This document shows, piece after piece, positions 2,034 to 36,822 of a DNA stretch of 37,208 nt. How positions within the stretch are numbered: the first letter of the stretch is position 1; each line of letters opens with the position of its first letter. The translations under genes were made by a program, and so were the position numbers. The DNA is from Akkermansia sp. Lineage in GTDB: Bacteria; Verrucomicrobiota; Verrucomicrobiia; Verrucomicrobiales; Akkermansiaceae. The notes beneath the pieces were generated by a model, which saw only the letters and a list, made by a program, of their open reading frames with translations, was not told the origin of the DNA and did no database searches. The stretch covers positions 1 to 37,208 of the forward strand of contig JAFXCP010000002.1 of NCBI GenBank assembly GCA_017521405.1, read 5' to 3'.

Positions 2034-2062
2034 TTGCATGTGCGGATAGAGATGCTTAGAAT
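2034..2062 (+). promoter_or_regulatory. Promoter of the Sel1-repeat gene, predicted leaderless
   Basis: -35 TTGCAT (2034-2039), 17-nt spacer, -10 TAGAAT (2057-2062). Only 7 nt separate the -10 box from the ATG at 2070, so transcription should begin at or within a base or two of the start codon. No Shine-Dalgarno fits between them. Confidence 0.6.
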
Positions 2063-2069
2063 ATAGGGC

Positions 2070-3635
2070 ATGATGCAGGTATCTTTTCGTTTTTCCGCAT
2101 GGTTGGCGATGTTTCCTTTAGCTGTTTATGCGGCAGAGCCGGATGATGGAGCGTTTTACGAGGCGATTAGGGCTATTCTGCCTCCGGCTATTGAGAAGGT
2201 GCAGCCCCCTGCCCCAATGCCGGAGGTGGCGCAACAACAGGCGGAGAAGAAGGTGGAGGTGCCTGCTTCGCACGAGTATAAGCCGGACGTGCAGCGCGCG
2301 GCGGATGTGTCTCCGGCGGCGCATCCGGAGCAGTTTGCTCTGTTTAAGGAGAAGTTACAGGAGCAGATGAAGGCTAATTTGTACGATTTCTGCCCTGCTA
2401 TGGAGGTGGTTTTGCGAGCTACGAATGATGAGTTTGCAGCACAGGTATGGATGGAGGCGGCTGCGGCGGATGGGGTTGCACCGGCGATGCAGTATGTGGC
2501 AGATCGGAGGCTGACTAATATTCAAGCGGATAAGGTGATGAATCCGGAGGTGGTGGAGGCTTACCGGCTGGTACGCAAGGCGGCGGATGCCGGTTTTGAT
2601 GCAGCTAAGGTTAATGTGTGTATGTGCATGAAGATGGGTATTGGTACGCCTAAGGATGAGGATGCTGCGGATAAATACATTTTCGAGGCCTGCAAGGGGG
2701 GGAATATGATTCCTCGTTTTAAGTGGCTGCAGATGAGCCGACGCTTGGTGGCGTTTGAGGATAAGGAGCGAGCGGAGGTGAAGGCGGAAATTGAGCGGGG
2801 CAATCACCATGTGGCATATTTTTTAGCGCGTTTGGCACCGGATTTGGAGCAGCGGGTTCATTATATGCAGATGGCTGCTAAGGCCGGCAATGCTGATGCG
2901 CTTTTTGCGCTTTCTGCGATGGCTGCGTCCAAGGCTCCCAAGGATAGTTTGGTGCTGCTGAAGGAGGCTATTCGTAAGCACAGTGCGGAGGCGATGTTCA
3001 CGCTTGGCACGGCGGTGACGGATGGGGATATGGAGAATCCTTTGCTGAAGGAGGCCGGTATTACCCGCGATGAGGTGGCGGGTAGGCATTTGGTGCGCCT
3101 GGCTTCTATGCTGGGTAATATTCCGGCGGCTTTCTGGCTGGGTAATGCTTACCACGATGGGATGTTCGGTATGGTGAAGGATGATGCCCGGGCTTATAAG
3201 CATTTCCATGCCGGGGCGATGGCGGGGAATCCTGCTTGCGGTGCGGCTTTGGGGCTTATGACGCTGAGGGGGATTGGTACGGAGGCGGATTCGCGCCGTG
3301 GGCTGTATTATTTGAATGTGGCAGCCAGTTCCGGGGTGAGTTATGCTGTGGTTCTGCTGGCTTATGCCCAGTACGAGGGGCTTGGGGTGGCACCGGATGG
3401 GCGCAAGGCTTGTGATTTGCTTCAGGAGGCGGCGGCAATGAATCAGCCTGAGGCTTATGTTTATTTGGCTTTCCTTACGGCTAAGGGGGGAGCCGGCATG
3501 CAGCCGGATGAGTTTATGGCAGCGCGGTATCTGCGCATGGCGACTCTGGATATGGGGGATAAGGCGCAGGCGCTTTACGATAAGTTGATGAAGGAGGGCA
3601 AGTGGGAGCCGGGTATTATGCCTGAGGTGTTCTAA
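2070..3635 (+). CDS. Secreted Sel1-like repeat protein
   Basis: A 521-residue protein with an N-terminal signal peptide (hydrophobic segment about residues 9-21, likely cleavage after YAA). After a Pro/Glu-rich linker (about 30-75) come helical repeats of the Sel1 type, with recurring A-x-x-LG and G-x-G patterns, for example AAFWLGNAYHDGMFG and ALGLMTLRGIGT. They are clearest between residues 150-200 and 340-500. Sel1 repeats are TPR-related scaffolds for protein contacts, here in the periplasm or at the surface. No catalytic domain is visible. ATG 2070 is followed by a second ATG at 2073 and either may be used. The gene appears to have its own promoter; the flippase gene begins 32 nt after the stop. 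Confidence 0.88.
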   Translation: MMQVSFRFSAWLAMFPLAVYAAEPDDGAFYEAIRAILPPAIEKVQPPAPMPEVAQQQAEKKVEVPASHEYKPDVQRAADVSPAAHPEQFALFKEKLQEQMKANLYDFCPAMEVVLRATNDEFAAQVWMEAAAADGVAPAMQYVADRRLTNIQADKVMNPEVVEAYRLVRKAADAGFDAAKVNVCMCMKMGIGTPKDEDAADKYIFEACKGGNMIPRFKWLQMSRRLVAFEDKERAEVKAEIERGNHHVAYFLARLAPDLEQRVHYMQMAAKAGNADALFALSAMAASKAPKDSLVLLKEAIRKHSAEAMFTLGTAVTDGDMENPLLKEAGITRDEVAGRHLVRLASMLGNIPAAFWLGNAYHDGMFGMVKDDARAYKHFHAGAMAGNPACGAALGLMTLRGIGTEADSRRGLYYLNVAASSGVSYAVVLLAYAQYEGLGVAPDGRKACDLLQEAAAMNQPEAYVYLAFLTAKGGAGMQPDEFMAARYLRMATLDMGDKAQALYDKLMKEGKWEPGIMPEVF

Positions 3636-3667
3636 ATATTCCGAGGTTCTCGCGATGTAGGGAGGCC

Positions 3668-5110
3668 ATGAAGCGCCAGGCTGTTATTAAGGAGACGCTG
3701 AGCGGCATGCGCTGGATGCTGCTGCAGAAGTGTACCCAGCAGCCTGTGGCGCTGCTGTATGCCATGGTGCTTTCTCGCCATGTTTCTGCGGCGGAGATGG
3801 GGCTGCTGGGGCTTACGGCTGTGTTTTTCACGGCGGCCACCTCGCTCCAGCATGCAGGTATTGGCAGTGTACTGGTGCGCCGCCAGAGGTATTCGAATGC
3901 GGATTTGAATACGATGTTCTGGTTCAATTTGGGGATGGGGGGACTTTTGGCAGGGGGGATTGTTCTGGCAGCTCCGGGGGTGGCGGCGTTCTTTTCGCTG
4001 CCGGAGTTGGAGCTGCTGGCACAAGCGGCTGCGCTCATCGTTTTTTTGAGCTGTGCGGCCAGTGTGCATATTAGTTTTTACACTTCCCGGCGGCAGTTCC
4101 GCATTCCGGCTTTAGTATGCACGGGTAGCACGCTGGCGGGGCTACCGGTATGTTTATTGCTGGCTCAGCAGGGGTGGGGGATATGGGCTTATATGGTGCA
4201 AGGTATTGTGGGGGCTGTACTCACGCTATTTGTTTTTTTTCTGCTTTGTCCATGGAAGCCGGCATTGCATTTTTCCGGCGAGTCGCTGCACAAGCTGGGG
4301 GGGATGGGGTGCCGTTTGGCTTCCACCGGGATGCTGGATACGCTCTATATCCACACGCGCGCTTTTTTTATCGGCAAGTTTTATTCTGCTTCCGGGCTGG
4401 GAGTTTATAAGAATGGGGCTCAGTTGGCCGCGATGTTGCCTACGATTCTGTGCTATATGCTGGACCAAGTAACTTTCCCGGTGCTTTCTACGCTGCGGAA
4501 CACTCCCGGCAAGATGCGTACTTTGTACCGCCGCTATATGCGAGCGTTTACTTTGGGTATTGCATGGGTGTGCATTTTCACTGCTGTGTTCGCAGAGTCT
4601 CTGGTGGAGGTGGTGTATGGACCGGGCTGGCAGGAGGCTGTTCCTTACCTGCAAATTCTGAGTCTTTCTTACGCTACTTGGCATTTGCAGATTCTCAATC
4701 TCAATCTGCTGAAGGCGGGGGGACCGAAGAAGCTTTTTTTGCGGCTGGAAATCGCCAAGAAGCTGGTGGGCACGGTTATTTTAGTGGCAATGTTTCCCAT
4801 TAGTATGCTTGCTATTTGCTATGGGGCGCTGGCTACGTCCATCATTAACCTCACTATCAATACTTGCGTGACGGCTCGGGTGATGCATTTGCCCGTGCGT
4901 GCCCAATTGCGTGATTTCCTGCCCCAATTTGCCTTAGCCGGGGTGGCTTGCCTTCTTCCCAGAGTACTTGTTTGCTATGCGCCGGTGCCGGTTTCTCCAT
5001 GCTTGCATGCCGGGGTGGGGTTCTGTGTTTCCCTGATTTTATACCCGCTGCTGCTGGGGCTTTTCCGCTCTCGGGCACTCCGGGAGTTGCGCTCCATCTG
5101 GGGGTGCTGA
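3668..5110 (+). CDS. Polysaccharide/oligosaccharide flippase (Wzx/PST-like)
   Basis: A 480-residue, very hydrophobic protein with about 12-14 predicted membrane segments. The N-terminal pattern (VLSRHVSAAEMGLLGL, then GIGSVLVRRQ) and the mid-protein YTSRRQFR and YKNGAQLAAML motifs match the polysaccharide transporter branch of the MOP superfamily (WzxC/RfbX-like). Such proteins flip lipid-linked glycans across the inner membrane for envelope or exopolysaccharide assembly. ATG 3668 has a GGGAGG Shine-Dalgarno just upstream. No glycosyltransferase genes adjoin it, so the substrate cannot be inferred. A bidirectional terminator separates it from rpsD. Confidence 0.85.
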   Translation: MKRQAVIKETLSGMRWMLLQKCTQQPVALLYAMVLSRHVSAAEMGLLGLTAVFFTAATSLQHAGIGSVLVRRQRYSNADLNTMFWFNLGMGGLLAGGIVLAAPGVAAFFSLPELELLAQAAALIVFLSCAASVHISFYTSRRQFRIPALVCTGSTLAGLPVCLLLAQQGWGIWAYMVQGIVGAVLTLFVFFLLCPWKPALHFSGESLHKLGGMGCRLASTGMLDTLYIHTRAFFIGKFYSASGLGVYKNGAQLAAMLPTILCYMLDQVTFPVLSTLRNTPGKMRTLYRRYMRAFTLGIAWVCIFTAVFAESLVEVVYGPGWQEAVPYLQILSLSYATWHLQILNLNLLKAGGPKKLFLRLEIAKKLVGTVILVAMFPISMLAICYGALATSIINLTINTCVTARVMHLPVRAQLRDFLPQFALAGVACLLPRVLVCYAPVPVSPCLHAGVGFCVSLILYPLLLGLFRSRALRELRSIWGC

Positions 5111-5161
5111 AGGAGTAAGTTGAGCTTTGTTTCCCTTCCCTGCTTCTCCCCCAAAAGAAGA

Positions 5162-5190
5162 AATCCCGGCTCCTACTCGGAGCCGGGATT
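5162..5190. terminator. Bidirectional terminator between flippase gene and rpsD
   Basis: A perfect 12-bp stem, AATCCCGGCTCC (5162-5173) and GGAGCCGGGATT (5179-5190), with loop TACTC. It is T-rich on both outer sides and lies between converging genes. Confidence 0.85.
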
Positions 5191-5217
5191 CTAAGTATTT
5201 TGTAGCTTTCCCCAGCT

Positions 5218-5829
5218 TTAGCGGGAGTACAACTCCACGATGAGCTGCACGTTCACGATGGGGGCAATCTCCTCCACGGAGGGAATGCGCTGCACCTTGC
5301 CGCTGAGCTTGGCGGAATCCACTTCCAACCAATCGGGCGTGGTGGCGCTGGCTGCCAGCTCCACGAAGCGGTTGGCAAGAGCCTGAGAGCGAGCCTTGGC
5401 GGCTACGGTGATGACGTCACCGGGCTTGCAGGAGTAGGAGGGGATGTTCACCTTCTTGCCGTTCACCTGCACGTGGCCGTGGGATACCATCTGGCGGGCA
5501 GCAGCACGGGTGGTGGCAAAGTTGAGGCGGTAGATGATGTTGTCGAGGCGGAGTTCCAGCAGTTGCAGGAGGATATCGCCCGTCACGCCACGACGGCGGG
5601 AGGCTTCCTCATAGTACTTGCGGAACTGGCCTTCAAGCACGCCGTACATGAAGCGCAGCTTCTGCTTTTCGGCAAGCATGATGCCGTAGTCGGACTTCTT
5701 CTTACGGCCGGCGCGGGCACCGTGCTGACCCGGAGGGAAGGGACGGCGGGCAAATGCCTTGCTGGCACCAAAGAGTTCCACGCCGAAACGGCGGCTAATC
5801 TTGGCGGTAGGACCTGTGTAACGAGCCAT
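5218..5829 (-). CDS. rpsD: 30S ribosomal protein S4
   Basis: 203 residues, the normal length. It starts MARYTGPTAKISRRFG and contains RPFPPGQHG and the S4 RNA-binding domain (about 92-155, RLDNIIYRLNF...ARQMVSHGHVQVNG). S4 nucleates 30S assembly on 16S rRNA and often represses its own operon by binding mRNA. It is the zinc-free form, with no N-terminal Cys cluster. It is the last gene of rpsM-rpsK-rpsD; rpoA, which usually follows, is absent and a terminator comes next. There is no Shine-Dalgarno in the AAGAAAAATTACACACATT leader. Confidence 0.98.
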   Translation of the reverse strand: MARYTGPTAKISRRFGVELFGASKAFARRPFPPGQHGARAGRKKKSDYGIMLAEKQKLRFMYGVLEGQFRKYYEEASRRRGVTGDILLQLLELRLDNIIYRLNFATTRAAARQMVSHGHVQVNGKKVNIPSYSCKPGDVITVAAKARSQALANRFVELAASATTPDWLEVDSAKLSGKVQRIPSVEEIAPIVNVQLIVELYSR

Positions 5830-5868
5830 AATGTGTGTAATTTTTCTTGGTTCGATGTTAATGATTCA

Positions 5869-6390: not shown

Positions 6391-6416
6391 GTTCAGTTTC
6401 TTTTTTTAAGGGTTAA

Positions 6417-6785: not shown

Positions 6786-6851
6786 AGTGGTGTGTGTGTT
6801 TGTACGTAGATAATGTTCTGCACTGCCTCGCGACAGCGCGTGACGGCGCAC

Positions 6852-6946: not shown

Positions 6947-7396
6947 TCAATCAAAATCCGGGAGGGGACGGAGGGCAGGCATCTCGGGGGGCGTCTGCTC
7001 CGCCTTCATTTCGGCCGATGCCGCACCACGGTAAGCGGGCAGTTTAGTGGGTATGTAGCTGGCGGGCGTGGGGATTTTCTTGAGCGGGATGGTCACCTCA
7101 TCCGGCTCAATGTATTGGGCATAGGGATCCCGCTTTGTCCAGATAATAGCAAGGAGTGTATTTGTCTGCGTGGGGACAGTCTCCGAAGCGGCCTCGTAGC
7201 CGGGCTTGAGAGCAAGGATGGAGAGGTCCTTATCCTGAGCAATTTCCGTGGTCACCGGGCTGGTGCCGACAGGCTCGCCGTTGATAGTAATGGCGGCACC
7301 CTGCGGGTAGGTGTTGACGGTAAAATCTTTTTTACCCATGCAGGAGGCCAACAGAAAAAGGCCGGGAAGGACCAGAGAACGGGGCAGGATGCTCAT
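6947..7396 (-). CDS. PEGA-domain lipoprotein
   Basis: 149 residues with a lipoprotein signal (lipobox LASC, Cys19), so it is probably a periplasmic or outer-membrane lipoprotein. Residues about 25-72 form a PEGA domain (FTVNTYPQGAAITINGEPVGTSPVTTEI...KPGYE), a beta-sandwich common in surface proteins. The C-terminal half is Pro-rich and lacks recognisable motifs. Function is unknown. It is transcribed alone, with a promoter whose -10 box is 9 nt before the ATG. Confidence 0.85.
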   Translation of the reverse strand: MSILPRSLVLPGLFLLASCMGKKDFTVNTYPQGAAITINGEPVGTSPVTTEIAQDKDLSILALKPGYEAASETVPTQTNTLLAIIWTKRDPYAQYIEPDEVTIPLKKIPTPASYIPTKLPAYRGAASAEMKAEQTPPEMPALRPLPDFD

Positions 7397-7405
7397 ACGG
7401 CAGAC

Positions 7406-7434
7406 AATGTACTGAATGCCCTGCCCCGATGCAA
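7406..7434 (-). promoter_or_regulatory. Promoter of the PEGA lipoprotein, near-leaderless
   Basis: On the minus strand -35 TTGCAT (7434-7429), 17-nt spacer, -10 TACATT (7411-7406), then 9 nt to the ATG. This predicts a leader of about 2 nt. Confidence 0.55.
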
Positions 7435-10150: not shown

Positions 10151-10179
10151 TTGTATTCCCCTCCCTCCTATGTTATATA
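10151..10179 (+). promoter_or_regulatory. Promoter of the 144-aa protein gene, predicted leaderless
   Basis: -35 TTGTAT (10151-10156), 17-nt spacer, -10 TATATA (10174-10179), then 6 nt to the ATG. The AAGGAG at 10179-10184 is only one base from the ATG, too close to serve as a Shine-Dalgarno. Confidence 0.55.
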
Positions 10180-10185
10180 AGGAGC

Positions 10186-17778: not shown

Positions 17779-17784
17779 GCACAC

Positions 17785-17813
17785 ATTGTAATAAAACCTC
17801 GCGCGCAAAGCAA
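17785..17813 (-). promoter_or_regulatory. Promoter of the lipoprotein-xerD operon, predicted leaderless
   Basis: On the minus strand -35 TTGCTT (17813-17808), 17-nt spacer, -10 TACAAT (17790-17785), then 6 nt to the ATG at 17778. Confidence 0.6.
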
Positions 17814-18297: not shown

Positions 18298-19992
18298 TTA
18301 TACGGTGCGGGTGGGGACCTTTTCCAGTTTTTTTCGGGCTTCCTTACGAGCGTTAAACACCTGCTCCTCCGTGGCATCGAATCGGCGCAATAAACTTCCC
18401 ACCATGGTGAGGGCGACCTCTTCCTCGCCGGAATACACATCTGCCGTGCCTTCAGCTCGCATCCGACGCGCATTCTGCATGTAGCGGGTATGTGCCATTA
18501 CGGAGATTGCCGGGTTCAGGCTGCAGGCAGCTTCCGCTATTTCCTGAGCCGGTGCGGCAGCACTGGTCACAATGATGGCTTGGCTCTTTTCCACACCGGC
18601 AAGGGAGAGAATGGAGCGTAAGCGGGCATCTCCGTGCATGGCATTCACGCCCTTTTTCTGCAAGGCTACCACGGTGTCGATGTTCATTTCGATGATGACA
18701 ACATCCACATCGTAGCTGCGGAGAATATCCGTCATCAGCTCGCCGCAGGGACCATGGCCTACAACGATAACGCGGTCTCTATCCTCTGCCGGGGGCGGAA
18801 TGAGGTGCCCCGGCTGCTGGGGAGCCACGCCGATACCTCTTTCTTCCATGGCACGAATGAGAGAGGGAACAAAACGATACAGGGCAGCATTAAGGGTGAT
18901 GGTGATGATGGCCACACCGGTAATGACGTTTACGGCACTCCACGGCATTACCTTATAGGTGCCGGCCACAAGGGCAGCCAAGATGAAGGAGAATTCGCCT
19001 ATTTGCGATAAGGAGGTACCCACAATAACGCCTAAACGCCCGGGACGACGCAACAGGCGAATGACAGCATAGGAGGAGAGTGGCTTAAAGAAAAGAGTGA
19101 GGGCGAGTGTGCCAAGAGCTAAGGGCCAATGTTCCACCAAGCCCATGGCATCAAACCCCATCCCCACCGATACGAAAAATAGCACGGCAAAGGCATCACG
19201 CATGGGCAAAGCATCGCTGGCGGCACGGCTGGCAAAGCGGCTTTGCCCTACGACCATACCGGAGAGGAAGGCACCGAATTCCATGGAGGCGTTAAACACG
19301 TACGAGGAGAGTACCGCAATGCCTAAGGCGCACACAAGGACGGCTAGGGTGAAGAGTTCGTTCGAGTTGCTGCGGGCAATATATGTAAGCACGCGGGAAA
19401 TGACATACTTGCCCAGATAGGCAACGCAGAACACCATGAGAGTCAATTTTACAGCCATCCAGCCCAATGCCGGACCAAGAGGCTCTCCGCCGAACATAAC
19501 GGGCAACAGCACCAATAGTACAATGGTGAAGATATCTTCCACCACAAGCCAGCCCAATGCCGTGTGCCCGGCCGGTGTGTGCAGTAGGTGGTTATCCTCC
19601 AGCACGCGGGTGAGGACAACTGTGCTGGATACGCAAATACACATACCAAAGAGTGCAGCCGTAACCCAATCTGCCCCGCCTAAGAAGTAATAAGCTATCG
19701 CACCGGTTCCGGTCCACAGAGTCATGCAGATGAGAGCGCCCGGCACGGCTACTTTTCGCACGGCAAGCAAGTCCTTAAAATGGAATTGCAATCCTACGCC
19801 GAACAGAAGCAGTACCACACCGATGTGGGAAAATTCCTCCACCACATGCCGATCTACAGGGTGCCCCCACCATGGCTGTGCAGCCAGCATGCCGGCCAGC
19901 AGGTAACCTACCAAGGGGGAGAGGCGCAGTCGCTGGGCAAGCATCCCCAGCAGGAGAGCCAGCACAAGCCCTATAACTAGTGTGAATATCAT
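18298..19992 (-). CDS. Kef/YbaL-type monovalent cation:H+ antiporter (CPA2) with RCK domain
   Basis: 564 residues. The N-terminal ~390 form a 12-13-helix CPA2 transporter (LSPLVGYLLAGML, GWLVVEDIFTIVLL, SQIGEFSFILA). The C-terminal ~170 contain an RCK/TrkA-N nucleotide-binding domain with the Rossmann motif VVGHGPCGE and an acidic end of the second strand (VVIIEMN). Such proteins exchange K+ or Na+ for H+ at the inner membrane, gated by nucleotide or thiol adducts. Length and domain order match E. coli YbaL (558). ATG 19992 overlaps the rlmI stop as ATGA, which fixes the start and indicates coupling. Confidence 0.93.
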   Translation of the reverse strand: MIFTLVIGLVLALLLGMLAQRLRLSPLVGYLLAGMLAAQPWWGHPVDRHVVEEFSHIGVVLLLFGVGLQFHFKDLLAVRKVAVPGALICMTLWTGTGAIAYYFLGGADWVTAALFGMCICVSSTVVLTRVLEDNHLLHTPAGHTALGWLVVEDIFTIVLLVLLPVMFGGEPLGPALGWMAVKLTLMVFCVAYLGKYVISRVLTYIARSNSNELFTLAVLVCALGIAVLSSYVFNASMEFGAFLSGMVVGQSRFASRAASDALPMRDAFAVLFFVSVGMGFDAMGLVEHWPLALGTLALTLFFKPLSSYAVIRLLRRPGRLGVIVGTSLSQIGEFSFILAALVAGTYKVMPWSAVNVITGVAIITITLNAALYRFVPSLIRAMEERGIGVAPQQPGHLIPPPAEDRDRVIVVGHGPCGELMTDILRSYDVDVVIIEMNIDTVVALQKKGVNAMHGDARLRSILSLAGVEKSQAIIVTSAAAPAQEIAEAACSLNPAISVMAHTRYMQNARRMRAEGTADVYSGEEEVALTMVGSLLRRFDATEEQVFNARKEARKKLEKVPTRTV

Positions 19993-21317
19993 ACCAATAC
20001 GTGCGCCCAAAGAACTTTAAGGTAACGGCCTTCCGGATAAGTGGAAAGGAAGGGGTGGTCCCAGCCGGGACCGGTCATGTCCAATATCTGCAAGCGGCGG
20101 CCCAAACGCTGAGCCGCTTTGATGACGACTTTTTCAAACTCGGAGGGAGATACCAGCCCGGAGCAGGAGCAGGTAACAAATAAGCCACCCTGCCGCACAC
20201 ATTGGAGACCCAGCATGTTCAAATCGTTGTATTTTTTCAGTCCTTCTTCTTTCTCCTCGTCTCTGCCCAACACAAACTTAGGCGGGTCCAGCAAAACTAC
20301 ATCGAACAGCTTGCCGTTTCTCACCATCTGGCGAGCATAGACAAAGGCATCCGCATGCACGAAGTCAATCCGTAAAGGACCGGAGGAAGCATTGATGTTG
20401 GCATTTCGCTTAGCCATAGCAATGGCTTTTTCATCCAAATCCACAGCGGTGACCGCCCTCGCGCCGCCATGCAATTTGGCATAGATGGAAAAACCGCCGG
20501 AATAGCAGCAGAGATCCAGCAGGCTTTTGCCGCGCACGAGGGAGGCCAGCTTACGGCGATTATCCCGCTGGTCGCAGAAAAAGCCGGTTTTGTGCCCTTG
20601 GGCAAAGTCCACCTCGAAGTTCACCTCGTTTTCCACCACGCGCACACGGTGTACCGGTGCGCTCTCCGGAGCCTGCGCCGGGTCAATCCCCTCCATACGG
20701 GCGATGGCCGGATCCACGGTGATGACGTGCCGGGAGGTTCCGCACAATTCATGCAGCAGCGGGAGCCATTGGGCCAAGCGGAGCCATACGCCCAAGGTGC
20801 TTACCTCCAAGCTGAGAACATCTGCATAGCGATCCACAATCAAGCCCCCCAGGCCATCCGAATCCCCATGGATAACACGATACGCCGTGGTGGAGGCATC
20901 CAGTCCGCAATCTTCCCGCCGCCAAGCCACCGCGCGGCGAAGTGCTTCTTCCAGACTCGCCTCATCGATAGGGGTGGAACCATGCCGGAGCATGCGCAGG
21001 GGGGTGCGGCTCTGAGGATTCCAAAATCCCCCGCCGAAAAGCTCCCCATTCTTATCATACACATGAATGAGGCCGCCGCGAACAGCATCCGGGCTGGAGG
21101 CTCCCAGCATGCGGGGAAATACCGCCGGGTTATAGGTAAAGTATTTGAGCTGCACCCACGGGCGAAGCCACTGCTCGCTCCCCTCCGGTGCTTTCTCCTC
21201 TCGCAAAGCCTGTGTACGCGGGCGAACACTGCCGGAGAATCCCCCCATGGGTTTTCTGTCCTTATACCGAGGACGATTCCCCTGCCCCCTATCCTTATCT
21301 GCTGAAAAATTCCTCAC
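19989..21317 (-). CDS. rlmI: RlmI-like 23S rRNA m5C methyltransferase (PUA + SAM)
   Basis: Transfers methyl from SAM to a cytosine of 23S rRNA. The PUA-like segment (WVQLKYFTYNPAVFPRMLGA) is followed by a linker domain and a Rossmann methyltransferase with LLDLCCYSGGFSIYA (motif I), VDLDEKAIAMAKRN and the catalytic LLDPPKFV; the Cys-rich VTCSCSGLVS is also typical. The N-terminal ~30 residues are a basic, non-conserved extension. Start choice: the frame opens at a TTG (21341) that lies inside the promoter spacer, so it cannot be used. GTG 21317 sits 6 nt after the -10 box (leaderless), and ATG 21248 has AAGGA 10 nt upstream. I prefer GTG 21317 (442 aa) but ATG 21248 (419 aa) is possible. Confidence 0.85.
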   Translation of the reverse strand: MRNFSADKDRGQGNRPRYKDRKPMGGFSGSVRPRTQALREEKAPEGSEQWLRPWVQLKYFTYNPAVFPRMLGASSPDAVRGGLIHVYDKNGELFGGGFWNPQSRTPLRMLRHGSTPIDEASLEEALRRAVAWRREDCGLDASTTAYRVIHGDSDGLGGLIVDRYADVLSLEVSTLGVWLRLAQWLPLLHELCGTSRHVITVDPAIARMEGIDPAQAPESAPVHRVRVVENEVNFEVDFAQGHKTGFFCDQRDNRRKLASLVRGKSLLDLCCYSGGFSIYAKLHGGARAVTAVDLDEKAIAMAKRNANINASSGPLRIDFVHADAFVYARQMVRNGKLFDVVLLDPPKFVLGRDEEKEEGLKKYNDLNMLGLQCVRQGGLFVTCSCSGLVSPSEFEKVVIKAAQRLGRRLQILDMTGPGWDHPFLSTYPEGRYLKVLWAHVLV

Positions 21318-21323
21318 GGCGGA

Positions 21324-21352
21324 ATTATACGGACGTATCAAGGAAATGTCAA
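21324..21352 (-). promoter_or_regulatory. Perfect-consensus promoter of rlmI-antiporter-DUF486
   Basis: On the minus strand TTGACA (21352-21347), exactly 17 nt, TATAAT (21329-21324): a perfect sigma70 consensus. Six nt later comes an in-frame GTG. Confidence 0.85.
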
Positions 21353-22014: not shown

Positions 22015-22043
22015 TTCACAGAGCGTTAGAATCATGCTAGAAT
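22015..22043 (+). promoter_or_regulatory. Promoter of gpmI, predicted leaderless
   Basis: -35 TTCACA (22015-22020), 17-nt spacer, -10 TAGAAT (22038-22043), then CCCGGC and the ATG at 22050. The 6-nt gap puts the transcription start at the start codon. Confidence 0.6.
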
Positions 22044-22049
22044 CCCGGC

Positions 22050-23582
22050 ATGGCAAATAAACCTGTTGTTCTCATTATCCGCGATGGCTGGGGCCGCAAT
22101 CCGCAGGGTCCGGAAGCCGCCCAACAGACAGGCGATGCCACTGTGCTCGCCAAGACTCCCTTTACCGATAAGCTGCTGGCCACCTGCCCGCACACCATGC
22201 TCGGGGCTTCCGGGCAGGATGTGGGGCTGCCCGATGGCCAGATGGGCAACTCCGAAGTGGGGCACCTGAATCTGGGCGCCGGCCGCGTGGTATTCCAAGA
22301 CCTCTGCCGCATCACGAATGCCATTAACGATGGTTCCCTGGCGAAGAACCCCGTCATTACGGAGGCTTTTGCCAAGGCCGCAGGTACGCGCCTGCACCTC
22401 ATGGGGCTCGTTTCCGATGGCGGCGTGCATTCCCACATCGACCACCTTATCGGCATTGTTAAGATTGCCGCCGCAGCCGGTGTGAAAGACATCATGATTC
22501 ATGCGATTACGGACGGCCGCGATACGGACCCCAAGAGCGGTGCCGGATTCCTCCGCCAACTGCAGGAGACTGTGGCTCCCTATGGTGCCACCATCGCCAC
22601 GGTGGTGGGTCGCTTCTACGCGATGGATCGCGATAAGCGCTGGGACCGCGTTCAAGTGGCTTGGAACGCCATTGTCCACGGCAAAGGAGAATCCTGCTCC
22701 TGCACGCCTGCCGAATATGCCATGCAGAGCTATGCCGGCGATGTGACGGACGAATTCCTCAAGCCCGCCATCTTCTGCGAAGCCAACCAGCAGCGCATGC
22801 GCGATGGGGACGTGGTGTACTTCTTCAACTTCCGTGCTGACCGCGCCCGCGAACTTTCCCGCGCCCTCATCTACGAGGATTTCGATGGATTCGACCGCGG
22901 CGCTCAGCCCAAGGTGCATTACATCACCATGTCCGAATACGAAGCCTGCTACCCCTCTCCCGTGGTGTTCGAGCAAGAGCAGCTCACCAACATCCTCGGT
23001 GAGGTCATCTCCGCCGCCGGGCTTAAGCAGCTCCGCATCGCTGAGACGGAAAAGTATGCTCACGTTACCTTCTTCTTTAACGGAGGTGTGGAAACCCAAT
23101 TCGCTGGGGAAGATCGCATCCTTGTTCCCTCCCCGCGAGAGGTGGCTACCTACGATGAGAAACCCCAGATGAGCGTGGCCGAGGTGGCCGATAAATTCGT
23201 GGAGGCCATCCCGAACTACGATATTGCCATCATGAACTTTGCTAACCCTGACATGGTGGGCCACACGGGCTATTTGGAAGCCGGCATAGCCGCTTGCGAA
23301 GCTGTGGACCAAGCTCTGGAAAAATGCGTTACCCGCATCCGCGAGCTGGGAGGTTGCTGCCTTATCTGCGCCGACCACGGTAACTGCGAAAACATGCTCA
23401 ACCCGGATGGCTCCCCCAATACGGCTCACACCACGAACTTGGTGGATCTTATCTACTGCGGGCCGGATCAGGACGCTATTACGATGAGCGATGGCATTCT
23501 GGCCGATATTTCCCCCACGCTGCTGCACTTGCTCGGCATTGCTCAGCCGGCGGAGATGACCGGACACACGCTTGTAAAATAA
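22050..23582 (+). CDS. gpmI: 2,3-bisphosphoglycerate-independent phosphoglycerate mutase
   Basis: 510 residues, the normal length. An alkaline-phosphatase-superfamily enzyme using two Mn ions and a phosphoserine intermediate to convert 3- to 2-phosphoglycerate. The metal motif LIIRDGWG (Asp12), nucleophile Ser68 in MGNSEVGHLNLGAGR, HAITDGRDTDP, GRFYAMDRDKRWDR, NFRADRARE, and the C-terminal metal sites NFANPDMVGHTG and ICADHGNCE are all present. It is transcribed alone between two terminators. It coexists with gpmA at 9357. Confidence 0.97.
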   Translation: MANKPVVLIIRDGWGRNPQGPEAAQQTGDATVLAKTPFTDKLLATCPHTMLGASGQDVGLPDGQMGNSEVGHLNLGAGRVVFQDLCRITNAINDGSLAKNPVITEAFAKAAGTRLHLMGLVSDGGVHSHIDHLIGIVKIAAAAGVKDIMIHAITDGRDTDPKSGAGFLRQLQETVAPYGATIATVVGRFYAMDRDKRWDRVQVAWNAIVHGKGESCSCTPAEYAMQSYAGDVTDEFLKPAIFCEANQQRMRDGDVVYFFNFRADRARELSRALIYEDFDGFDRGAQPKVHYITMSEYEACYPSPVVFEQEQLTNILGEVISAAGLKQLRIAETEKYAHVTFFFNGGVETQFAGEDRILVPSPREVATYDEKPQMSVAEVADKFVEAIPNYDIAIMNFANPDMVGHTGYLEAGIAACEAVDQALEKCVTRIRELGGCCLICADHGNCENMLNPDGSPNTAHTTNLVDLIYCGPDQDAITMSDGILADISPTLLHLLGIAQPAEMTGHTLVK

Positions 23583-23597
23583 ACCCGAGTTCGCCTT

Positions 23598-23804
23598 TTA
23601 ATGGTGCTTCTTTACCCCCGGAGATGCCACATCGGCACTCCGGGGGTTTGAACTTTCACCAACTACGCCGGAATTCTTCTGCACTTCCCCCTTCAAAATA
23701 GGCACATGCGGAGACAATATGCCTTGCGTTCCCACAGGAAAAGCCACTGCAAGACACAAGCGCCACATGCCGGTTAATCTTTTGCAGTATATCTTAAATT
23801 CCAT
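23598..23804 (-). CDS. Possible 68-aa secreted peptide (doubtful)
   Basis: A minus-strand frame of 68 residues, convergent with gpmI. Residues 1-28 resemble a signal peptide (MWRLCLAVAFPVGTQG from an internal Met13). Upstream is a weak promoter-like TTGTTA, 18 nt, TACAAA, with 7 nt to the ATG, the same geometry as at other starts in this window. Against it, the 3' third coincides with the gpmI terminator hairpin and there is no recognisable domain. This may be chance. Confidence 0.2.
   Translation of the reverse strand: MEFKIYCKRLTGMWRLCLAVAFPVGTQGILSPHVPILKGEVQKNSGVVGESSNPRSADVASPGVKKHH
23614..23650 (+). terminator. Terminator after gpmI
   Basis: ACCCCCGGAG (23614-23623) pairs with CTCCGGGGGT (23638-23647), extended by TGCC/GGCA around loop ACATC. 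The tail TTTG is weak in T. Confidence 0.7.
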
Positions 23805-24130
23805 ATCTTTATTTGTACTCAGTCAAACAGATAACTAACAAGATTTTCCGGTTTTTAGCAAAAAAACTACCCTTTTCTCGCATCCAGAATTCCGCTTAGG
23901 CATACGGTGCTACATTGGCAAGACACCGCACGCAACTTGGATATTATACATTTAGAATCAAATATGTATCCACCCCAAACAAGCATCAGACCTCCCTCCG
24001 ATAAACAGCCACCCATATGATGCAATGAGCGAACAAAAGACGTTGAAAAGTACGAGAACTAAGGGGGATAAAGGAAAGAAAACAGAGGTTTACACTTGCC
24101 ATATAACAAGAATTGCTGTACCCTTGGGGA
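23805..24130. other. Intergenic stretch without a recognised gene
   Basis: About 325 bp, A/T-rich in the first half. I see no ORF of convincing composition. TATAAC at about 24101 may be a -10 box for the thioredoxin-like gene but lacks a good -35. An 18-codon frame near 23964 has no support. Confidence 0.35.
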
Positions 24131-24760
24131 ATGAAAGCACTTTTACGCTCGTTTTTCTATCTGGCATTGCTTTTGCCGATTCTTTTTCGACCTGTTGCAG
24201 CGCAGGATGCGCCTGTTGATGAGCCAGAAGCAGCTATCGGCATGGAATCGGAGGAAGCAGAGTCTGTTTCCATTGCAAAGATGCTCAAGGATGTGGAGTA
24301 TGTAACTAAGATACGCCCCAAGAAAAAAACACATCTCTACTTTTTCCTGCGCTCTCGTTCTAACTGCGGCTTCTGCGTACGCGCCCTTCCCCGGGAAATC
24401 GAGTTATACAAGGAAATGAAGGGTAAGGGAGCAGAGCTGATTATGTTGAACTGCGATGCTGATACAGCCACAGCAAAAGCATGGGTGGAAAAATCGGAAG
24501 TCAACTTCCCCGTTATCACGCCGGAGACAGCGGGCCAAATCAAAGTCCCGGCAGGCGGTAGTGGTGGTACACCAAACGTGGTGGCCATTTTGCCGGATGG
24601 AACTTTTATGGAGGGTATGTCCGGAGCCAATGGTAGTAGCGATTTCCTTGCAGGATGGAAAGATTTGCTGAAGGAAGCTAAGAAGATGAAAAAGACAGGA
24701 AAGAAAAAGAAAACTCGCAAGAAAAAAGCTCGAAAGGCCTCTGAAACAGAGGAGATTTAA
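24131..24760 (+). CDS. Secreted thioredoxin-like protein with Lys-rich tail
   Basis: 209 residues from ATG 24131 (GGGGA immediately upstream). A signal peptide (LLRSFFYLALLLPILFRPVAAQ) precedes a thioredoxin-like domain of about 65-180: strand HLYFFLRSRS, CGFC redox motif (Cys79, Cys82), ELIMLNCDADT, NFPVIT and the cis-Pro region GGTPNVVAILPDG. It probably acts in periplasmic disulfide reduction or isomerisation. The C-terminal ~25 residues are nearly all Lys/Arg (KKTGKKKKTRKKKARK), an unusual basic tail that could bind DNA, peptidoglycan or an acidic surface polymer. A hairpin terminator follows. Confidence 0.85.
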   Translation: MKALLRSFFYLALLLPILFRPVAAQDAPVDEPEAAIGMESEEAESVSIAKMLKDVEYVTKIRPKKKTHLYFFLRSRSNCGFCVRALPREIELYKEMKGKGAELIMLNCDADTATAKAWVEKSEVNFPVITPETAGQIKVPAGGSGGTPNVVAILPDGTFMEGMSGANGSSDFLAGWKDLLKEAKKMKKTGKKKKTRKKKARKASETEEI

Positions 24761-32234: not shown

Positions 32235-33143
32235 ATGGCATCGCAATATACCATTGAACTGAACGAGGCAGAAGCCCGAACCCTCCGGCAGAAGCTGGCA
32301 GACCACCCCGATTTTAGCGAAATCTCCAGAGAATACGCCACTTTTTGCTACGAAGGCCAAGGCGTTAATGCTGCATTTTTCCCAAAAAAGAAAAAATTAC
32401 TCATCCAAGGAAAAAACGCAGATAACTTCATACAAAATTTTCTGAATCTCACCCCCGGAAGCTCCGCCCCATCCCTCAAAAACACCCTTCCGGCGCTGGT
32501 GGATACCACCCCCCATTTCGGCATCGATGAAAGCGGAAAAGGGGATTACTTCGGCCCCCTAGTCATCGCCGGCGTATACACCGATGAACGCTGTGCAGCA
32601 GAACTCCACCGCCTGGGCTGCAAAGACAGTAAACAGCTGGATGATGCCCGCATCCTTAGCCTCGCAAAAAAAATTATGGGGACCGCAGGCGTCGCACACG
32701 AAATCATTTGCATAGGCCCCCGCAGGTACAACGAACTCTACACAGAATTCGGCAACTTGAACAAACTGCTCGCCTGGGGGCATGCACGCGTCATTGCCGC
32801 ACTGCATAGCATGGTACCCACCTGCCCCCGCGCCCTGAGCGACCAGTTTGCCAACGAATGGGTGCTTAAACGCGCACTGGGGCAGCGCCACCTCCCCGTG
32901 CAACTGGAACAGCGCACCAAAGCGGAAAGCGATGTAGCCGTTGCCGCAGCCTCCATACTGGCACGGGCACGCTTCGTGCAATGGATAAAACACACCGCCG
33001 AGGCCGCAAAATGCCCACTTCCCCTCGGCTGTGCCCCCCATGTAGTACGTGCAGCGAAACACTTTGTCAGCACACACGGCGCGGAACGCTTGGGAGACGT
33101 GGCCAAACTACACTTCAAAGTAACCGGACAAGTGCTGAACTAG
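32235..33143 (+). CDS. rnhC: Ribonuclease HIII
   Basis: 302 residues from ATG 32235; an upstream TTG at 32196 is less likely. The N-terminal ~85 residues are the TBP-like substrate-binding domain of RNase HIII. The catalytic domain begins HFGIDESGKGDYFGPLVIAG, with Asp98 and Glu99 as the DE(S)GKGD metal site, followed by CKDSKQLDD and KAESDVAVAAASILARA. It removes RNA from RNA-DNA hybrids, including replication primers and R-loops. A weak CTGAAA, 17 nt, TTTAAA element ends 6 nt before the ATG. Confidence 0.95.
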   Translation: MASQYTIELNEAEARTLRQKLADHPDFSEISREYATFCYEGQGVNAAFFPKKKKLLIQGKNADNFIQNFLNLTPGSSAPSLKNTLPALVDTTPHFGIDESGKGDYFGPLVIAGVYTDERCAAELHRLGCKDSKQLDDARILSLAKKIMGTAGVAHEIICIGPRRYNELYTEFGNLNKLLAWGHARVIAALHSMVPTCPRALSDQFANEWVLKRALGQRHLPVQLEQRTKAESDVAVAAASILARARFVQWIKHTAEAAKCPLPLGCAPHVVRAAKHFVSTHGAERLGDVAKLHFKVTGQVLN

Positions 33144-33169
33144 CACCTCAAAAATCCGCATAACAGAAA

Positions 33170-33241
33170 CAGTCCCGGCGGGAATCGAACCCACATCTGC
33201 CCTTTAGGAGAGGGCCGTTCTATCCATTGAACTACGGGACC
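33170..33241 (-). tRNA. tRNA-Arg (anticodon CCU)
   Basis: Acceptor GGTCCCG pairs with CGGGACT. The D-arm is GTTC-AATGGATA-GAAC. Anticodon stem GCCCT/AGGGC encloses loop CTCCTAA (CCU), and the T-arm is GTGGG-TTCGATT-CCCGC. The CCA end is not encoded. Confidence 0.95.
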
Positions 33242-33261
33242 GGCGCAAAAAACGTGGCCAT

Positions 33262-33290
33262 GTTATAACACCGCCCCCCCGCCATAGCAA
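33262..33290 (-). promoter_or_regulatory. Promoter of tRNA-Arg
   Basis: On the minus strand TTGCTA (33290-33285), 17-nt G-rich spacer, TATAAC (33267-33262), about 20 nt before the tRNA. Confidence 0.7.
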
Positions 33291-33339
33291 GCCGAAAGCA
33301 CGGATAGCGCCACCTGCTGACACACAGGGCAGCACAGAA

Positions 33340-34164
33340 TTACGCACCGAAAGCCTCGCGAATCTCCCGGAGCTGTTCCCCACTCAAATGAGGGCTCAGC
33401 TCCGGCAGCATACGGGGGAAATACTCCGCCAAGGTCCAGCCATGCAGCGGCTGCGGCGTGGCCTTCTCAAAGCCCCATGTGGGGATGGGCAGCACCAAAT
33501 CCATCACGGCCGAAGCCCTGGGAGCCATGCGGCAGAATGCATCCACCACGCCCTGCCCCAGCGCCGGATGATTCACCAACACCTCCAGCAACCAAGAACA
33601 ACTCAAACGATTCGGTGCCACCTCCAGCTCATCCACCAACTCCTCCAAACGCTCCTCCGAAAGGCGCTGCAAGGGAGCCAACAAAGGCAGCACCCGCATA
33701 TCGCTCATACTCAGCAAAGCATCCAGCAGAGTGGTGGGTGCGAACTCATCCGAAACCAATAAACGCACCAGCTCCTGCACACCGCCCAAAGGCTCCTCCG
33801 GAGCAGGCTGTGCCAGCGTAGCCACATTGAGCGCCGCCTTGCGGCTCAATGCCTCATCCGGCTCCTGCGTGGCATACGGCAGCAGAGATTTCCACCCCTC
33901 TCCCTTACGCCCGGCAATAAAACGGCACAGCTGCACCATACTACTACGCCGCGCCGCCACGGATGTCTTCGTGGCAAACAAATTGTAAAGAGAGAAGTTT
34001 TCCTCCTGCTTCTCCTCATCATTACTGGTCATCAAGGCACAAGCCATCATAGCAAGAGGCCACTGATCCGCGCCGATTTCATGCACGCGTACCGGGTCGT
34101 GAGCCATGGCAGCCAAGCGCTCCAACTCCGATAAACCACTGAAATTATCTTGGTACAAGCCCAT
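33340..34164 (-). CDS. Hypothetical alpha-helical protein
   Basis: 274 residues, soluble, with no signal peptide. It is made mostly of Leu-rich helices (for example LLDALLSMSDMRVLPLLAPLQRLSEERLEELVDELE), a pattern seen in HEAT- or ARM-like solenoids, but no clear repeat period. An acidic stretch (NDEEKQEENF) lies near residues 48-57. I do not recognise the family. It is the last gene of a four-gene minus-strand operon, 31 nt after the TPR-like gene, so a shared envelope or scaffold role with that protein is possible. Confidence 0.75.
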   Translation of the reverse strand: MGLYQDNFSGLSELERLAAMAHDPVRVHEIGADQWPLAMMACALMTSNDEEKQEENFSLYNLFATKTSVAARRSSMVQLCRFIAGRKGEGWKSLLPYATQEPDEALSRKAALNVATLAQPAPEEPLGGVQELVRLLVSDEFAPTTLLDALLSMSDMRVLPLLAPLQRLSEERLEELVDELEVAPNRLSCSWLLEVLVNHPALGQGVVDAFCRMAPRASAVMDLVLPIPTWGFEKATPQPLHGWTLAEYFPRMLPELSPHLSGEQLREIREAFGA

Positions 34165-34195
34165 AAATCAACCTCCACGCATCAAACCCGGTCTC

Positions 34196-35041
34196 TTACA
34201 ACCCGGCAGGCTCCGAAAAAAGACTGCCTCCCCCCCCCTGAACACCGGGCGACGCCCCAAACGGCTCCAGCGGATTCGCCTCGGGAGCAGCAGGCGCCAC
34301 CGGCGCAGGAGCCGGAGCCACAGCACGCGGAGCATCCACATCCAGCAGCATCAGCCGCATCTCCACCACCTTACCTGTTACCAGCGTACTCGTGGCACAT
34401 TTGGCAGAAGCCTGCTCGTAAAAAGCGCGCGCAGCATCACGCTCTCCGGCGCTCTTACACATATCCCCCAAAGTAATATATGCCAAAGCCGTATAAGGCG
34501 TATCCCCCAGCTCCGTCACACGCTGCCATGCCGCGCGAGACTCCGGCTCCTTCCCGGTGGACAAATAATGCGTAGCCAGCGCGGCCAAAGCACGGGATTG
34601 CAGCAAAACATTAGCAGACCCGGAGGCCAACTGCTCCAACAAAGCCACCGCCGCAGCCTCCTCCCCCTTTGCCAGCAAAGAAAGCCCCTCTAACAAAGAA
34701 GCAGTCTCCGCAGAAGGCGTAGCCGCATACTCCTCACGCAGCTGTTGCAGCGTAGGAGCATCGTACTCCGCCGCAGAAACCGTCGCACCGGGAGCCGCCA
34801 CCTTCATCGCCTGCACCACCTGGGCCGCAGCCTCCATCCTCATATCATTCTTATGAGAAAAATAGGCAATAACCACCCCGGCCACAAGACTCAGCGAAAT
34901 ACCACCCCACATCAACTTCCTGTAATGCTGATTCAGGAACACCTCATGCCGGGAAGGACCGACGGCAATCTCACCAATAGCCTTAATCTCCTCCGGCGTA
35001 AGCGGCTGAATATCATCTTCATTCTTAGGCTTCGTATCCAT
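34196..35041 (-). CDS. Membrane-anchored TPR-like protein
   Basis: 281 residues. A cytoplasmic N-terminus (about 1-45) precedes one transmembrane segment (about 45-62, MWGGISLSLVAGVVIAYF). TPR-like helices follow at about 90-225 (ETASLLEGLSLLAKGEEAAAVALLEQL, TALAYITLGDMCKSAGERDAARAFYEQA), and a Pro/Ala/Gly-rich tail ends the protein. The layout resembles YfgM-type periplasmic chaperone scaffolds. It starts 6 nt after metF. Confidence 0.8.
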   Translation of the reverse strand: MDTKPKNEDDIQPLTPEEIKAIGEIAVGPSRHEVFLNQHYRKLMWGGISLSLVAGVVIAYFSHKNDMRMEAAAQVVQAMKVAAPGATVSAAEYDAPTLQQLREEYAATPSAETASLLEGLSLLAKGEEAAAVALLEQLASGSANVLLQSRALAALATHYLSTGKEPESRAAWQRVTELGDTPYTALAYITLGDMCKSAGERDAARAFYEQASAKCATSTLVTGKVVEMRLMLLDVDAPRAVAPAPAPVAPAAPEANPLEPFGASPGVQGGGGSLFSEPAGL

Positions 35042-35047
35042 ATCGTA

Positions 35048-35992
35048 TTATGATTTGTAAATATTGTTAAGCATGCGGAGGCGATCCACATCGTAATAAT
35101 TGTTAAAACCAAGATTGTGGTAAATCTCCAAAGTAGCCTTGGAACGATTCAACGTATAAAAATGAATACCATCCACATCCGCATCCAACAACTCCCCACA
35201 CTGGTTACTGGCATAATTGATTCCCAAACGCTCAATCGTCTGCTTATCCCCACCGGCACGCAGCATCGCCTTCAGCAAACGCGCCGGAAAATTCGTACCG
35301 GCAGAAAGCTCCGCCATACGATTCATGCTGGAAATAGACGTCACGGGCATAATCCCCGCAATAATAGGCACATGAATATCCATGAGCCGGCAGCGATCCC
35401 GGAAATCGAAAAAAGCGTGATTATCAAAGAAAAGCTGCGTACAAATATAATCTGCACCCTCATCCAGCTTAGCCTTCAGAAAATCCATCTCCCGCAAGCG
35501 ATTGCGAGAATCCGGATGCCCCTCCGCAAACCCCGCCACCCCCAGAGTAAGCCTCTGCGGCAAACGCTGCCTATCCTCCCACGCACGAATAAAACGCACC
35601 AAATCCGCCGCATGGCGAAAAGCATCCTGCCCGGGATTATACACCCCATTGCGCGGCGGGTCCCCACGCAACACCATAATAGCACGAGCCCCCGCCGCAA
35701 TATAATGGTGCAAAATATCCTCAATCTCCGCCTCCGTATGCCCCACACACGTCAAATGCGGCACCGTAGGAATCCCCCTGCTCTGCATATCGCACACCAC
35801 AGCACGAGTCAACTCACGAGAACCGCCACCGGCCCCATACGTCACACTCACAAAACTCGGATGGAACTCCTGCAACTTCACCACCGTATCCAGCAAAGAC
35901 GCCGCCCCCTCCTGCGTCTTAGGCGGGAAAAACTCAAACGAAAAACTCGGAGTACGATCAAACAGCACAGATTGAGACGATGACTCAGACAT
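35048..35992 (-). CDS. metF: 5,10-methylenetetrahydrofolate reductase
   Basis: 314 residues from ATG 35992 (MSESSSQSVLF); a TTG three codons earlier is less likely. An FAD-dependent TIM barrel that makes 5-methyl-THF for methionine synthesis. FSFEFFPPKTQEG, SVTYGAGGGSR, HLTCVGHTEAEI, VLRGDPPRNG, ADYICTQLFFDN and IIAGIMPVTS are the family motifs, including the catalytic Glu in FEFFPPK. It sits in an operon with three unrelated envelope-type or unknown genes. Confidence 0.96.
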   Translation of the reverse strand: MSESSSQSVLFDRTPSFSFEFFPPKTQEGAASLLDTVVKLQEFHPSFVSVTYGAGGGSRELTRAVVCDMQSRGIPTVPHLTCVGHTEAEIEDILHHYIAAGARAIMVLRGDPPRNGVYNPGQDAFRHAADLVRFIRAWEDRQRLPQRLTLGVAGFAEGHPDSRNRLREMDFLKAKLDEGADYICTQLFFDNHAFFDFRDRCRLMDIHVPIIAGIMPVTSISSMNRMAELSAGTNFPARLLKAMLRAGGDKQTIERLGINYASNQCGELLDADVDGIHFYTLNRSKATLEIYHNLGFNNYYDVDRLRMLNNIYKS

Positions 35993-36013
35993 ACCCGGCA
36001 AACAAGAAGAAGA

Positions 36014-36787
36014 TTAAGGAATAGGCGTAAGCGTCGCCTCCAACTCCGGCATATCGGCAGCCCCCCCCGCCGGAGCCCCCTGCGGAGCCGCCGCCGGTGC
36101 CACTGCCGGCACAGCATCGAAACCGCCAAACGACTTCAAATCCCCCGCATTCAAATACGGAGACACAATCACCTCATCCCCGGGAACCGGCTCCGGCTGA
36201 GCAATCCCCAAATCCGCACCGCCAAACTTCGCCTGTTTAATCGTAGCACTCACCTGCCCGGACTCCTCATCCCGGCCATCCACCACAGCCTCGCACACAA
36301 TATAATCCCCCTCGCGGCGCACCGCCACAAAAAGCCCCTCCGCCACAGGCTGATTCCCCTTCAGCGTAAAAAGAATCGAATTCCACTCCTTACTAAAAGC
36401 CGCCACCGTACCCAGCGCCGTCACCGCCGCCGCATCCTGAGCCGCAGCCTTAGCCTCCTTACGCGCAGCAGAAATCTGCTGCTTACGCTTAGCGGAAGCA
36501 ATCACACTCTGCTCCTCCGCCTCCGTCAGCTTCATCTCCTGCTCCTTCGCGGCAGACTCCACCGCCTGCCGCGCAGTTGCCACCTCCGGCGCATCCACCT
36601 CCGGCTGCAACTGCGCCATACGCGCGCGGTGCGCCTCATCCCGCTGCTGGTACTCCTGAATCTTCTGCTGCGTCTGGTACAACTCATACTGGTCCTGCCG
36701 CGCTGGCAAAAGCACCGCCACAGCATAGAACATCAGCCCCACCGCCAAGCAGAGCAACACCAGAATCGTCACCCGAAAACCATTCAT
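36014..36787 (-). CDS. Hypothetical protein with N-terminal anchor and coiled coil
   Basis: 257 residues from ATG 36787 (MNGFRVTILVLLCLAVGLMFYAVAVLL); the longer frame upstream contains the promoter. One N-terminal transmembrane helix (about 5-27) precedes a Gln/Glu/Ala/Lys coiled coil (about 32-125, QTQQKIQEYQQRDEAHRARM...). A small beta-rich domain (about 130-215, VAEGLFVAVRREGDYIVCEAVVDG) and a Pro/Ala/Gly tail follow. The family is unrecognised; the topology suggests a periplasmic envelope spacer or adaptor. First gene of the operon, 21 nt before metF. Confidence 0.75.
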   Translation of the reverse strand: MNGFRVTILVLLCLAVGLMFYAVAVLLPARQDQYELYQTQQKIQEYQQRDEAHRARMAQLQPEVDAPEVATARQAVESAAKEQEMKLTEAEEQSVIASAKRKQQISAARKEAKAAAQDAAAVTALGTVAAFSKEWNSILFTLKGNQPVAEGLFVAVRREGDYIVCEAVVDGRDEESGQVSATIKQAKFGGADLGIAQPEPVPGDEVIVSPYLNAGDLKSFGGFDAVPAVAPAAAPQGAPAGGAADMPELEATLTPIP

Positions 36788-36794
36788 ACGCGCA

Positions 36795-36822
36795 AGTATA
36801 GCAAATACCCCAACGTATTCAA
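36795..36822 (-). promoter_or_regulatory. Promoter of the metF operon, predicted leaderless
   Basis: On the minus strand -35 TTGAAT (36822-36817), 16-nt spacer, -10 TATACT (36800-36795), then 7 nt to the ATG at 36787. Confidence 0.6.

Follow-up and report, generated by a model that had tools for sequence, protein, structure and literature searches.

Where does an mRNA begin when its promoter ends only a few nucleotides before the start codon? This question is raised by a 37,208-nt stretch of Akkermansia sp. (assembly GCA_017521405.1, contig JAFXCP010000002.1, positions 1-37208; hereafter the window), in which promoter-like -35/-10 pairs stand almost directly before the start codons of several genes, gpmI and an rlmI-like gene among them. 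The window is contig 9 of an assembly of 1.985 Mb in 38 contigs, and its host belongs to the Akkermansia clade, the gpmI protein being 89% identical to that of Akkermansia sp. RGIG7740. From seven such pairs and a weaker one at rnhC, the original prediction had proposed that these genes are transcribed as leaderless mRNAs. We find that this interpretation is very likely right, and that the observation behind it holds genome-wide apart from rnhC.

Promoter geometry and start codon context

All eight promoter-like strings are present in the window exactly as written, each standing as far from its ATG or GTG as claimed. Under a -35/-10 model trained on the host, seven of them reach 10.0-16.9 bits. 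Of 4000 random places in the window, 0.22% score as high as the weakest of the seven, and for the remaining six the fraction is 0-0.05%; the scoring is mildly circular, because 37 of the 574 genes used for training are the window's own. The promoter geometry thus stands at seven of the named genes but not at rnhC. This eighth example was rejected, as its site scores 7.4 bits and fits best at d = 10 rather than at the claimed d = 6, where d is the number of nucleotides between the -10 hexamer and the start codon.

A genome-wide profile of -10 boxes against distance from the start codon, which had been put forward as the test of the leaderless claim, has a sharp peak at 6-7 nt. The host sample came to 784 kb, made up of the window and 746 kb of other stretches (contigs C22-C38 being left out), and genes were called from coding score and start-codon type only, without promoter or ribosome-site signals. 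A strict pattern (TTG, 16-18 bp, TAnnnT) was counted before the 577 genes with at least 100 nt upstream within their piece, genes cut by piece ends being excluded. The counts from d = 5 to d = 12 are 1, 16, 10, 2, 12, 13, 4 and 1 over a background of 1.7 per position, which amounts to 26 observed against 3.3 expected at d = 6-7 (P = 4e-15) and to 29 against 5.0 at d = 9-11. Among 161 operon-internal genes only two have the pair at d = 6-7, and both look like strong promoters; the same procedure applied to 200 kb of E. coli K-12 finds it there in none of 175 genes. Over the whole own genome, the pattern occurs 56, 46, 25, 52, 46 and 23 times at d = 6, 7, 8, 9, 10 and 14, with 6-13 matches for the reversed pattern, which served as the control in whole-genome counts (10 at d = 6).

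An expectation-maximization (EM) fit was made on the 574 genes with at least 160 nt upstream within their piece. It was started from TTGACA/TATAAT without a preferred distance, a starting point from which a different motif, such as the -33 (TTTG) and -7 (TAnnTTTG) elements of Bacteroidota-type promoters, is not easily found, and gave a -35 element TTG[AC][AC]A, a spacer of 17 bp in 73% of cases and an extended -10 element TGnTAnaAT. By its expectation about 245 of the 574 genes have such a promoter within 100 nt; d = 5-7 accounts for about 41 of them, d = 8 for 8 and d = 9-11 for 43, and most of the others lie further upstream.

The bases around the start codon agree with transcription starting there. 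In a comparison of start contexts, in which 13 of the 574 genes fell outside all three classes compared, 38 of the 39 genes with d = 5-7 begin with ATG and one with GTG, against ATG in 411 of 479 other genes. A pyrimidine-purine step falls on the A of the ATG in most genes at d = 6 (22 of 24) and at d = 7 (11 of 13); this is the mark expected if that A were the transcription start. Between 4 and 9 nt ahead of the start codon, Shine-Dalgarno (SD) tetramers (GGAG, GAGG or AGGA) were found in 5.2% of the 577 genes, and at 24-29 nt in 5.0%, so that no enrichment was seen, with E. coli as the positive control giving 35% and 3%. Five genus members were sampled by genes (the host, G184, G111, G051 and G196), and in the four others the corresponding figures are 7.4/4.4, 5.1/6.2, 6.3/4.8 and 2.0/7.8%. 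Within the host, the tetramers stand at 4-9 nt in 2.6% of the genes with d = 5-7 (39 genes) and in 5.4% of the 479 others.

Some side observations concern the translation signals. In the 784-kb sample the SD tetramers are enriched neither in first genes nor in operon-internal genes. The 3' tail of the 16S rRNA was located in two of eight genomes (G111 and G066) and was not found in the window's own assembly. Host genes with a promoter at d of at least 12 most commonly have T at -1 (54/129) and A at -3 (48/129), possibly a non-SD start context.

On the observed geometry, genome-wide peak, conservation among relatives (below) and lack of SD enrichment, the following explanation is favoured. Promoters of the housekeeping-sigma type, in which a 17-bp spacer separates the -35 TTG[AC][AC]A from an extended -10 TGnTAnaAT, would place the first base of the start codon 7-8 nt past the -10 hexamer, the usual start of RNA polymerase. 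If that base is the start point, the mRNAs would be leaderless, and ribosomes would begin on a 5'-terminal AUG or GUG without SD contact. Leaderlessness, the exact start of transcription and initiation at the 5' terminus are here read from the geometry and the initiator bases; we consider it highly probable that these are leaderless mRNAs from promoters abutting the start codon, the same trait as in A. muciniphila.

Conservation among relatives and competing readings

Is the geometry kept in related genomes? Among the best-scoring 30 gpmI loci from 38 genomes with a match, the host's own gene included, the pair lies at d = 6 in 23 and at d = 7 in 3, i.e. at 6-7 nt in 26 of 30. The rlmI-like gene was compared in 20 of 40 relatives (18 better matches plus G111 and G021), with d = 7 in 12 and d = 6 in 5; in these 17 the start triplet is GTG in 12 and ATG in 5, and the -10 distance is still 6-7 nt. 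The metF-operon gene has d = 7 in seven and d = 6 in one of 8 relatives compared out of 38. For the lipoprotein gene ahead of xerD, a promoter was called in all 12 relatives compared out of 30, at d = 6 in seven, d = 7 in one, d = 8 in two, d = 9 in one and d = 10 in one. In relatives of the same genus the geometry persists while the adjoining bases vary. At the four gpmI loci L217-L220, an AC-rich stretch replaces the conserved promoter, as if another promoter had taken over the gene.

The strict pattern was also counted in other members of the genus. At d = 6, 7, 8, 9, 10 and 14, ten members of 2.0-2.7 Mb (the host among them) have 676, 508, 315, 491, 369 and 216 matches, and twelve members of 2.7-3.5 Mb have 341, 355, 201, 231, 287 and 155. 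This contrast is partly circular, because members were assigned to the two groups by eye, on their d = 6 counts and genome sizes; the groups overlap at 2.7 Mb. The mean number of d = 6 matches in the larger-genome members is less than half that in the smaller ones, and the host's own 56 exceed the count in each of the twelve (23-36). A 23rd member, G096, belongs to neither group, having a high control and a strand-skewed count at d = 8, where 34 forward versus 11 reverse matches suggest a repeated element carrying the pattern. Across 288 genomes of the phylum, d = 6 counts stand above the reversed control in many families. Eleven distant genomes were followed at d = 7-9, and no rate is drawn from them because they were chosen for high d = 6. 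Four genomes of one family (f5) gave summed pattern and reversed counts of 12/5, 10/23, 11/18 and 13/9 at d = 6, 7, 8 and 9, with no consistent excess.

Several points weigh against the leaderless explanation. Four of the 30 gpmI loci and two of the 20 rlmI relatives are without such a promoter (a third rlmI relative gave no call as its piece was too short). Unselected ortholog pairs of leaderless-type genes from the sampled stretches, taken at 45% identity or more and with alignments beginning no later than residue 12, keep d = 6-7 in only five of eight, four of the five scoring at least 9 bits and one being weak. The gene sample of G111, one of the larger genomes, has the strict pattern at d = 6-7 twice against 0.7 expected, but under the fitted model the count rises to 9, where its background would yield about 1.2. 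The related genomes are moreover not independent of one another, and the start codons come from a simple coding-score caller which differs from the reader of the original prediction at three of the eight genes.

The last point leads to a different reading, in which the promoters are genuine and translation begins at codons further downstream, so that the mRNAs are leadered and the nearby ATG or GTG is unused. Caller and reader chose the same start at five of the eight genes; the caller took 2109 rather than 2070 for the Sel1-repeat gene, 21248 rather than 21317 for the rlmI-like gene and 32196 rather than 32235 for rnhC, and its later starts at the first two are what speaks for downstream initiation. 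Yet the rlmI start at 21317 is backed by its conservation in 17 of 20 relatives, where GTG and ATG replace each other at a -10 distance of 6-7 nt; only a signal-peptide-like N-terminus points to 2070 in the Sel1-repeat gene. The gpmI ATG lies only a few codons ahead of the conserved N-terminal core, which would leave no room for a later start and makes one implausible, and in the whole-genome counts the pattern is enriched 6-7 nt before ATG itself. Unused nearby start codons are therefore quite improbable in our estimate. A milder version, in which the nearby start codons are used but all the mRNAs, those of the 6-7 nt class included, carry leaders of 1-5 nt, draws on the fact that RNA polymerase can start about 6-9 nt after the -10 element, and on the existence of a class at 9-11 nt. 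The initiator bases stand against it, since C precedes the start codon in 29 of 39 genes at 5-7 nt and the pyrimidine-purine step falls on the A of the ATG in nearly all genes at d = 6 and d = 7. We regard it as unlikely, though less so than downstream starts.

It might also be asked whether the -10 and -35 matches arose by chance and were picked by eye in AT-rich upstream regions. One of the eight, rnhC, is indeed weak, and the reader varied both consensus and spacing. But the excess of 26 over 3.3 is found in unselected genes, the pair is nearly absent at d = 6-7 from operon-internal genes, the reversed-pattern counts are low and the geometry is conserved in relatives. Chance matching is already refuted by the distance profile together with the footprints, and we give it practically no credence. 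Among these readings the leaderless one is preferred. Two parts of it as originally drawn do not stand, its status as undescribed and its single range of distances; the peak at 6-7 nt, the conservation at four genes and the lack of SD enrichment are what support the remainder.

A second spacing class at 9-11 nt

The original prediction had spoken of one range of 6-9 nt. Within it the 6-7 nt class holds, but the range merges with it a separate class at 9-11 nt, to which the PEGA lipoprotein gene belongs, across a dip at 8 nt. In the own whole genome, the 25 matches at d = 8 contrast with 52 at d = 9 (P = 0.003) and with 46 at d = 7 (P = 0.017). Matches at d = 9 outnumber those at d = 8 in 10 of 10 smaller-genome and 7 of 12 larger-genome members of the genus (17 of 22), these related genomes not being independent. 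In the accessible portions of the open PMC-subset literature we found no account of a spacing that peaks again at 9-11 nt after dipping at 8 nt. This raises two questions. Are the two peaks different kinds of 5' end? And if so, what does the second one mean for the ribosome?

The base before the start codon differs between the classes: of the 39 genes at d = 5-7, 29 have C and 6 have T there, and of the 43 at d = 9-11, 11 have C and 26 have T (P = 6e-6). In three other genomes the direction is the same but the difference is not significant (C14/T8 against C5/T10, P = 0.10). In this base the genes at 9-11 nt are like leadered ones, T being the commonest there also in the host's own genes with promoters further upstream. 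A purine at -3 occurs in 15 of 19 genes at d = 10, 11 of 17 at d = 9 and 2 of 7 at d = 11, and is clear only at d = 10, where it fits a start 8 nt after the -10 element and a 3-nt leader. It was also considered whether the second peak came from start codons called three nucleotides too late. This was rejected, since the preceding triplet is not ATG, GTG or TTG in 24 of 25 genes at d = 9-10, the remaining one having GTG.

Other observations do not fit two distinct classes. In unselected orthologs of 9-11 nt genes, a site of at least 9 bits at 9-11 nt is kept in none of seven (one has a weak site at d = 9), and two of the seven have a site at 6-7 nt instead. In orthologs of the lipoprotein gene, d takes values from 6 to 10. 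The small sets of genes sampled from G184 and G196 lack the dip at d = 8, and in the own genome the looser fitted model makes it shallower, with 7 there against 13 and 16. The evidence for the second peak as leaders of about 3 nt is therefore mixed. Promoters at 9-11 nt most likely give leaders of about 2-4 nt. That the clade uses two 5'-end geometries, one leaderless with the -10 element 6-7 nt before the AUG and C at -1, the other with mini-leaders of about 3 nt, a spacing of 9-11 nt, U at -1 and a purine close to -3, with selection disfavouring leaders of 1-2 nt, is a tentative proposal to which we assign somewhat less than an even chance.

The two-peaked spacing is the part worth following. 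If the two-geometry reading is true, a ribosome working without SD contact either takes a 5'-terminal AUG directly or needs about one codon of RNA ahead of it, and two leader lengths would make a natural test of how much RNA is needed ahead of the AUG. The five gene-sampled genus members, with little or no SD signal, are candidates in which leaderless and leadered initiation could be studied without SD. The promoter-start geometry could also help to correct start codons in Akkermansia genomes.

Features of the window and known systems

Coordinates of the promoters and genes are collected in the table below. Besides the families listed there, Pfam matches RNase HII, a phage-integrase-family (XerD-type) protein and MTHFR in the window; no Pfam family was matched by the 144-aa protein, the lipoprotein or the first gene of the metF operon. 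The 659 bases after gpmI (23583-24241) are without a gene call, and the next gene may start earlier, with an open frame from 24113.

Table. Promoters and associated genes in the window (positions of the whole stretch).
Feature	Position	Strand	Remarks
Sel1-repeat gene promoter, TTGCAT-17-TAGAAT	2034..2069	+	7 nt before ATG 2070; 15.6 bits; start partly inferred
Sel1-repeat protein gene, predicted leaderless	2070..3635	+	PF08238
PEGA lipoprotein promoter, TTGCAT-17-TACATT	7397..7434	-	9 nt before ATG 7396; 11.6 bits; second, putative short-leader class
PEGA-domain lipoprotein gene	6947..7396	-	PF08308
144-aa protein promoter, TTGTAT-17-TATATA	10151..10185	+	6 nt before ATG 10186; 10.0 bits, weakest of the seven
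Lipoprotein-xerD unit promoter, TTGCTT-17-TACAAT	17779..17813	-	6 nt before ATG 17778; 13.8 bits
rlmI-like gene promoter, TTGACA-17-TATAAT	21318..21352	-	6 nt before GTG 21317; 16.6 bits
rlmI-like methyltransferase gene, predicted leaderless, GTG start	19989..21317	-	PF10672, PUA_3
gpmI promoter, TTCACA-17-TAGAAT, extended -10 TGC	22015..22049	+	6 nt before ATG 22050; 16.9 bits
gpmI, cofactor-independent phosphoglycerate mutase, predicted leaderless	22050..23582	+	PF06415, PF01676
metF operon promoter, TTGAAT-16-TATACT	36788..36822	-	7 nt before ATG 36787; 16.8 bits
Claimed rnhC promoter, CTGAAA-17-TTTAAA	32200..32234	+	unsupported; 7.4 bits

Start-codon-abutting promoters are known from other bacteria. 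In the leaderless transcriptome of Mycobacterium tuberculosis, TANNNT promoters reportedly abut start codons, and SD-led genes are said to coexist with the leaderless ones; in the present host, SD enrichment is absent.

The closest known case lies within the genus. According to the available part of the report, Cappable-seq of A. muciniphila in mouse caecum placed 10% of its transcription start sites (TSSs) at annotated starts, against 0.4% in E. coli, with 886 high-confidence positions in replicate 1 (PMC4782308). The original prediction had held the trait to be undescribed for this kind of organism; at the genus level this is wrong, because the host lies in the Akkermansia clade and these TSS data exist. 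What is gained beyond the known trait is its extension to another species of the clade. As far as the accessible text goes, A. muciniphila shares with the host the genus-level clade, the -35 and -10 elements, a pyrimidine-purine (YR) initiator and TSSs at starts; it differs in that this text deals only with TSSs at starts and does not speak of a second class of spacing (PMC4782308).

The host's lack of SD enrichment agrees with a survey which, in the part available, classes Akkermansia muciniphila and A. glycaniphila as SD-scarce with a conserved CCUCC (PMC10783764). In that part the class rests on pairing between 16S rRNA and mRNA, whereas the trait described here rests on promoter geometry. 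A further parallel is found in Deinococcus. In D. radiodurans, the portion of the study at hand describes a TANNNT motif about 6-7 bp before the open reading frame (ORF) in nearly one third of genes, with a ribosome-binding-site motif also found (PMC12340547). On that portion, the two systems have in common a -10 motif adjoining the ORF, leaderless mRNAs (predicted, in the host) and conservation in homologues. Unlike Deinococcus, the host has a -35 element in its fitted model, lacks SD enrichment and shows a second peak at 9-11 nt.

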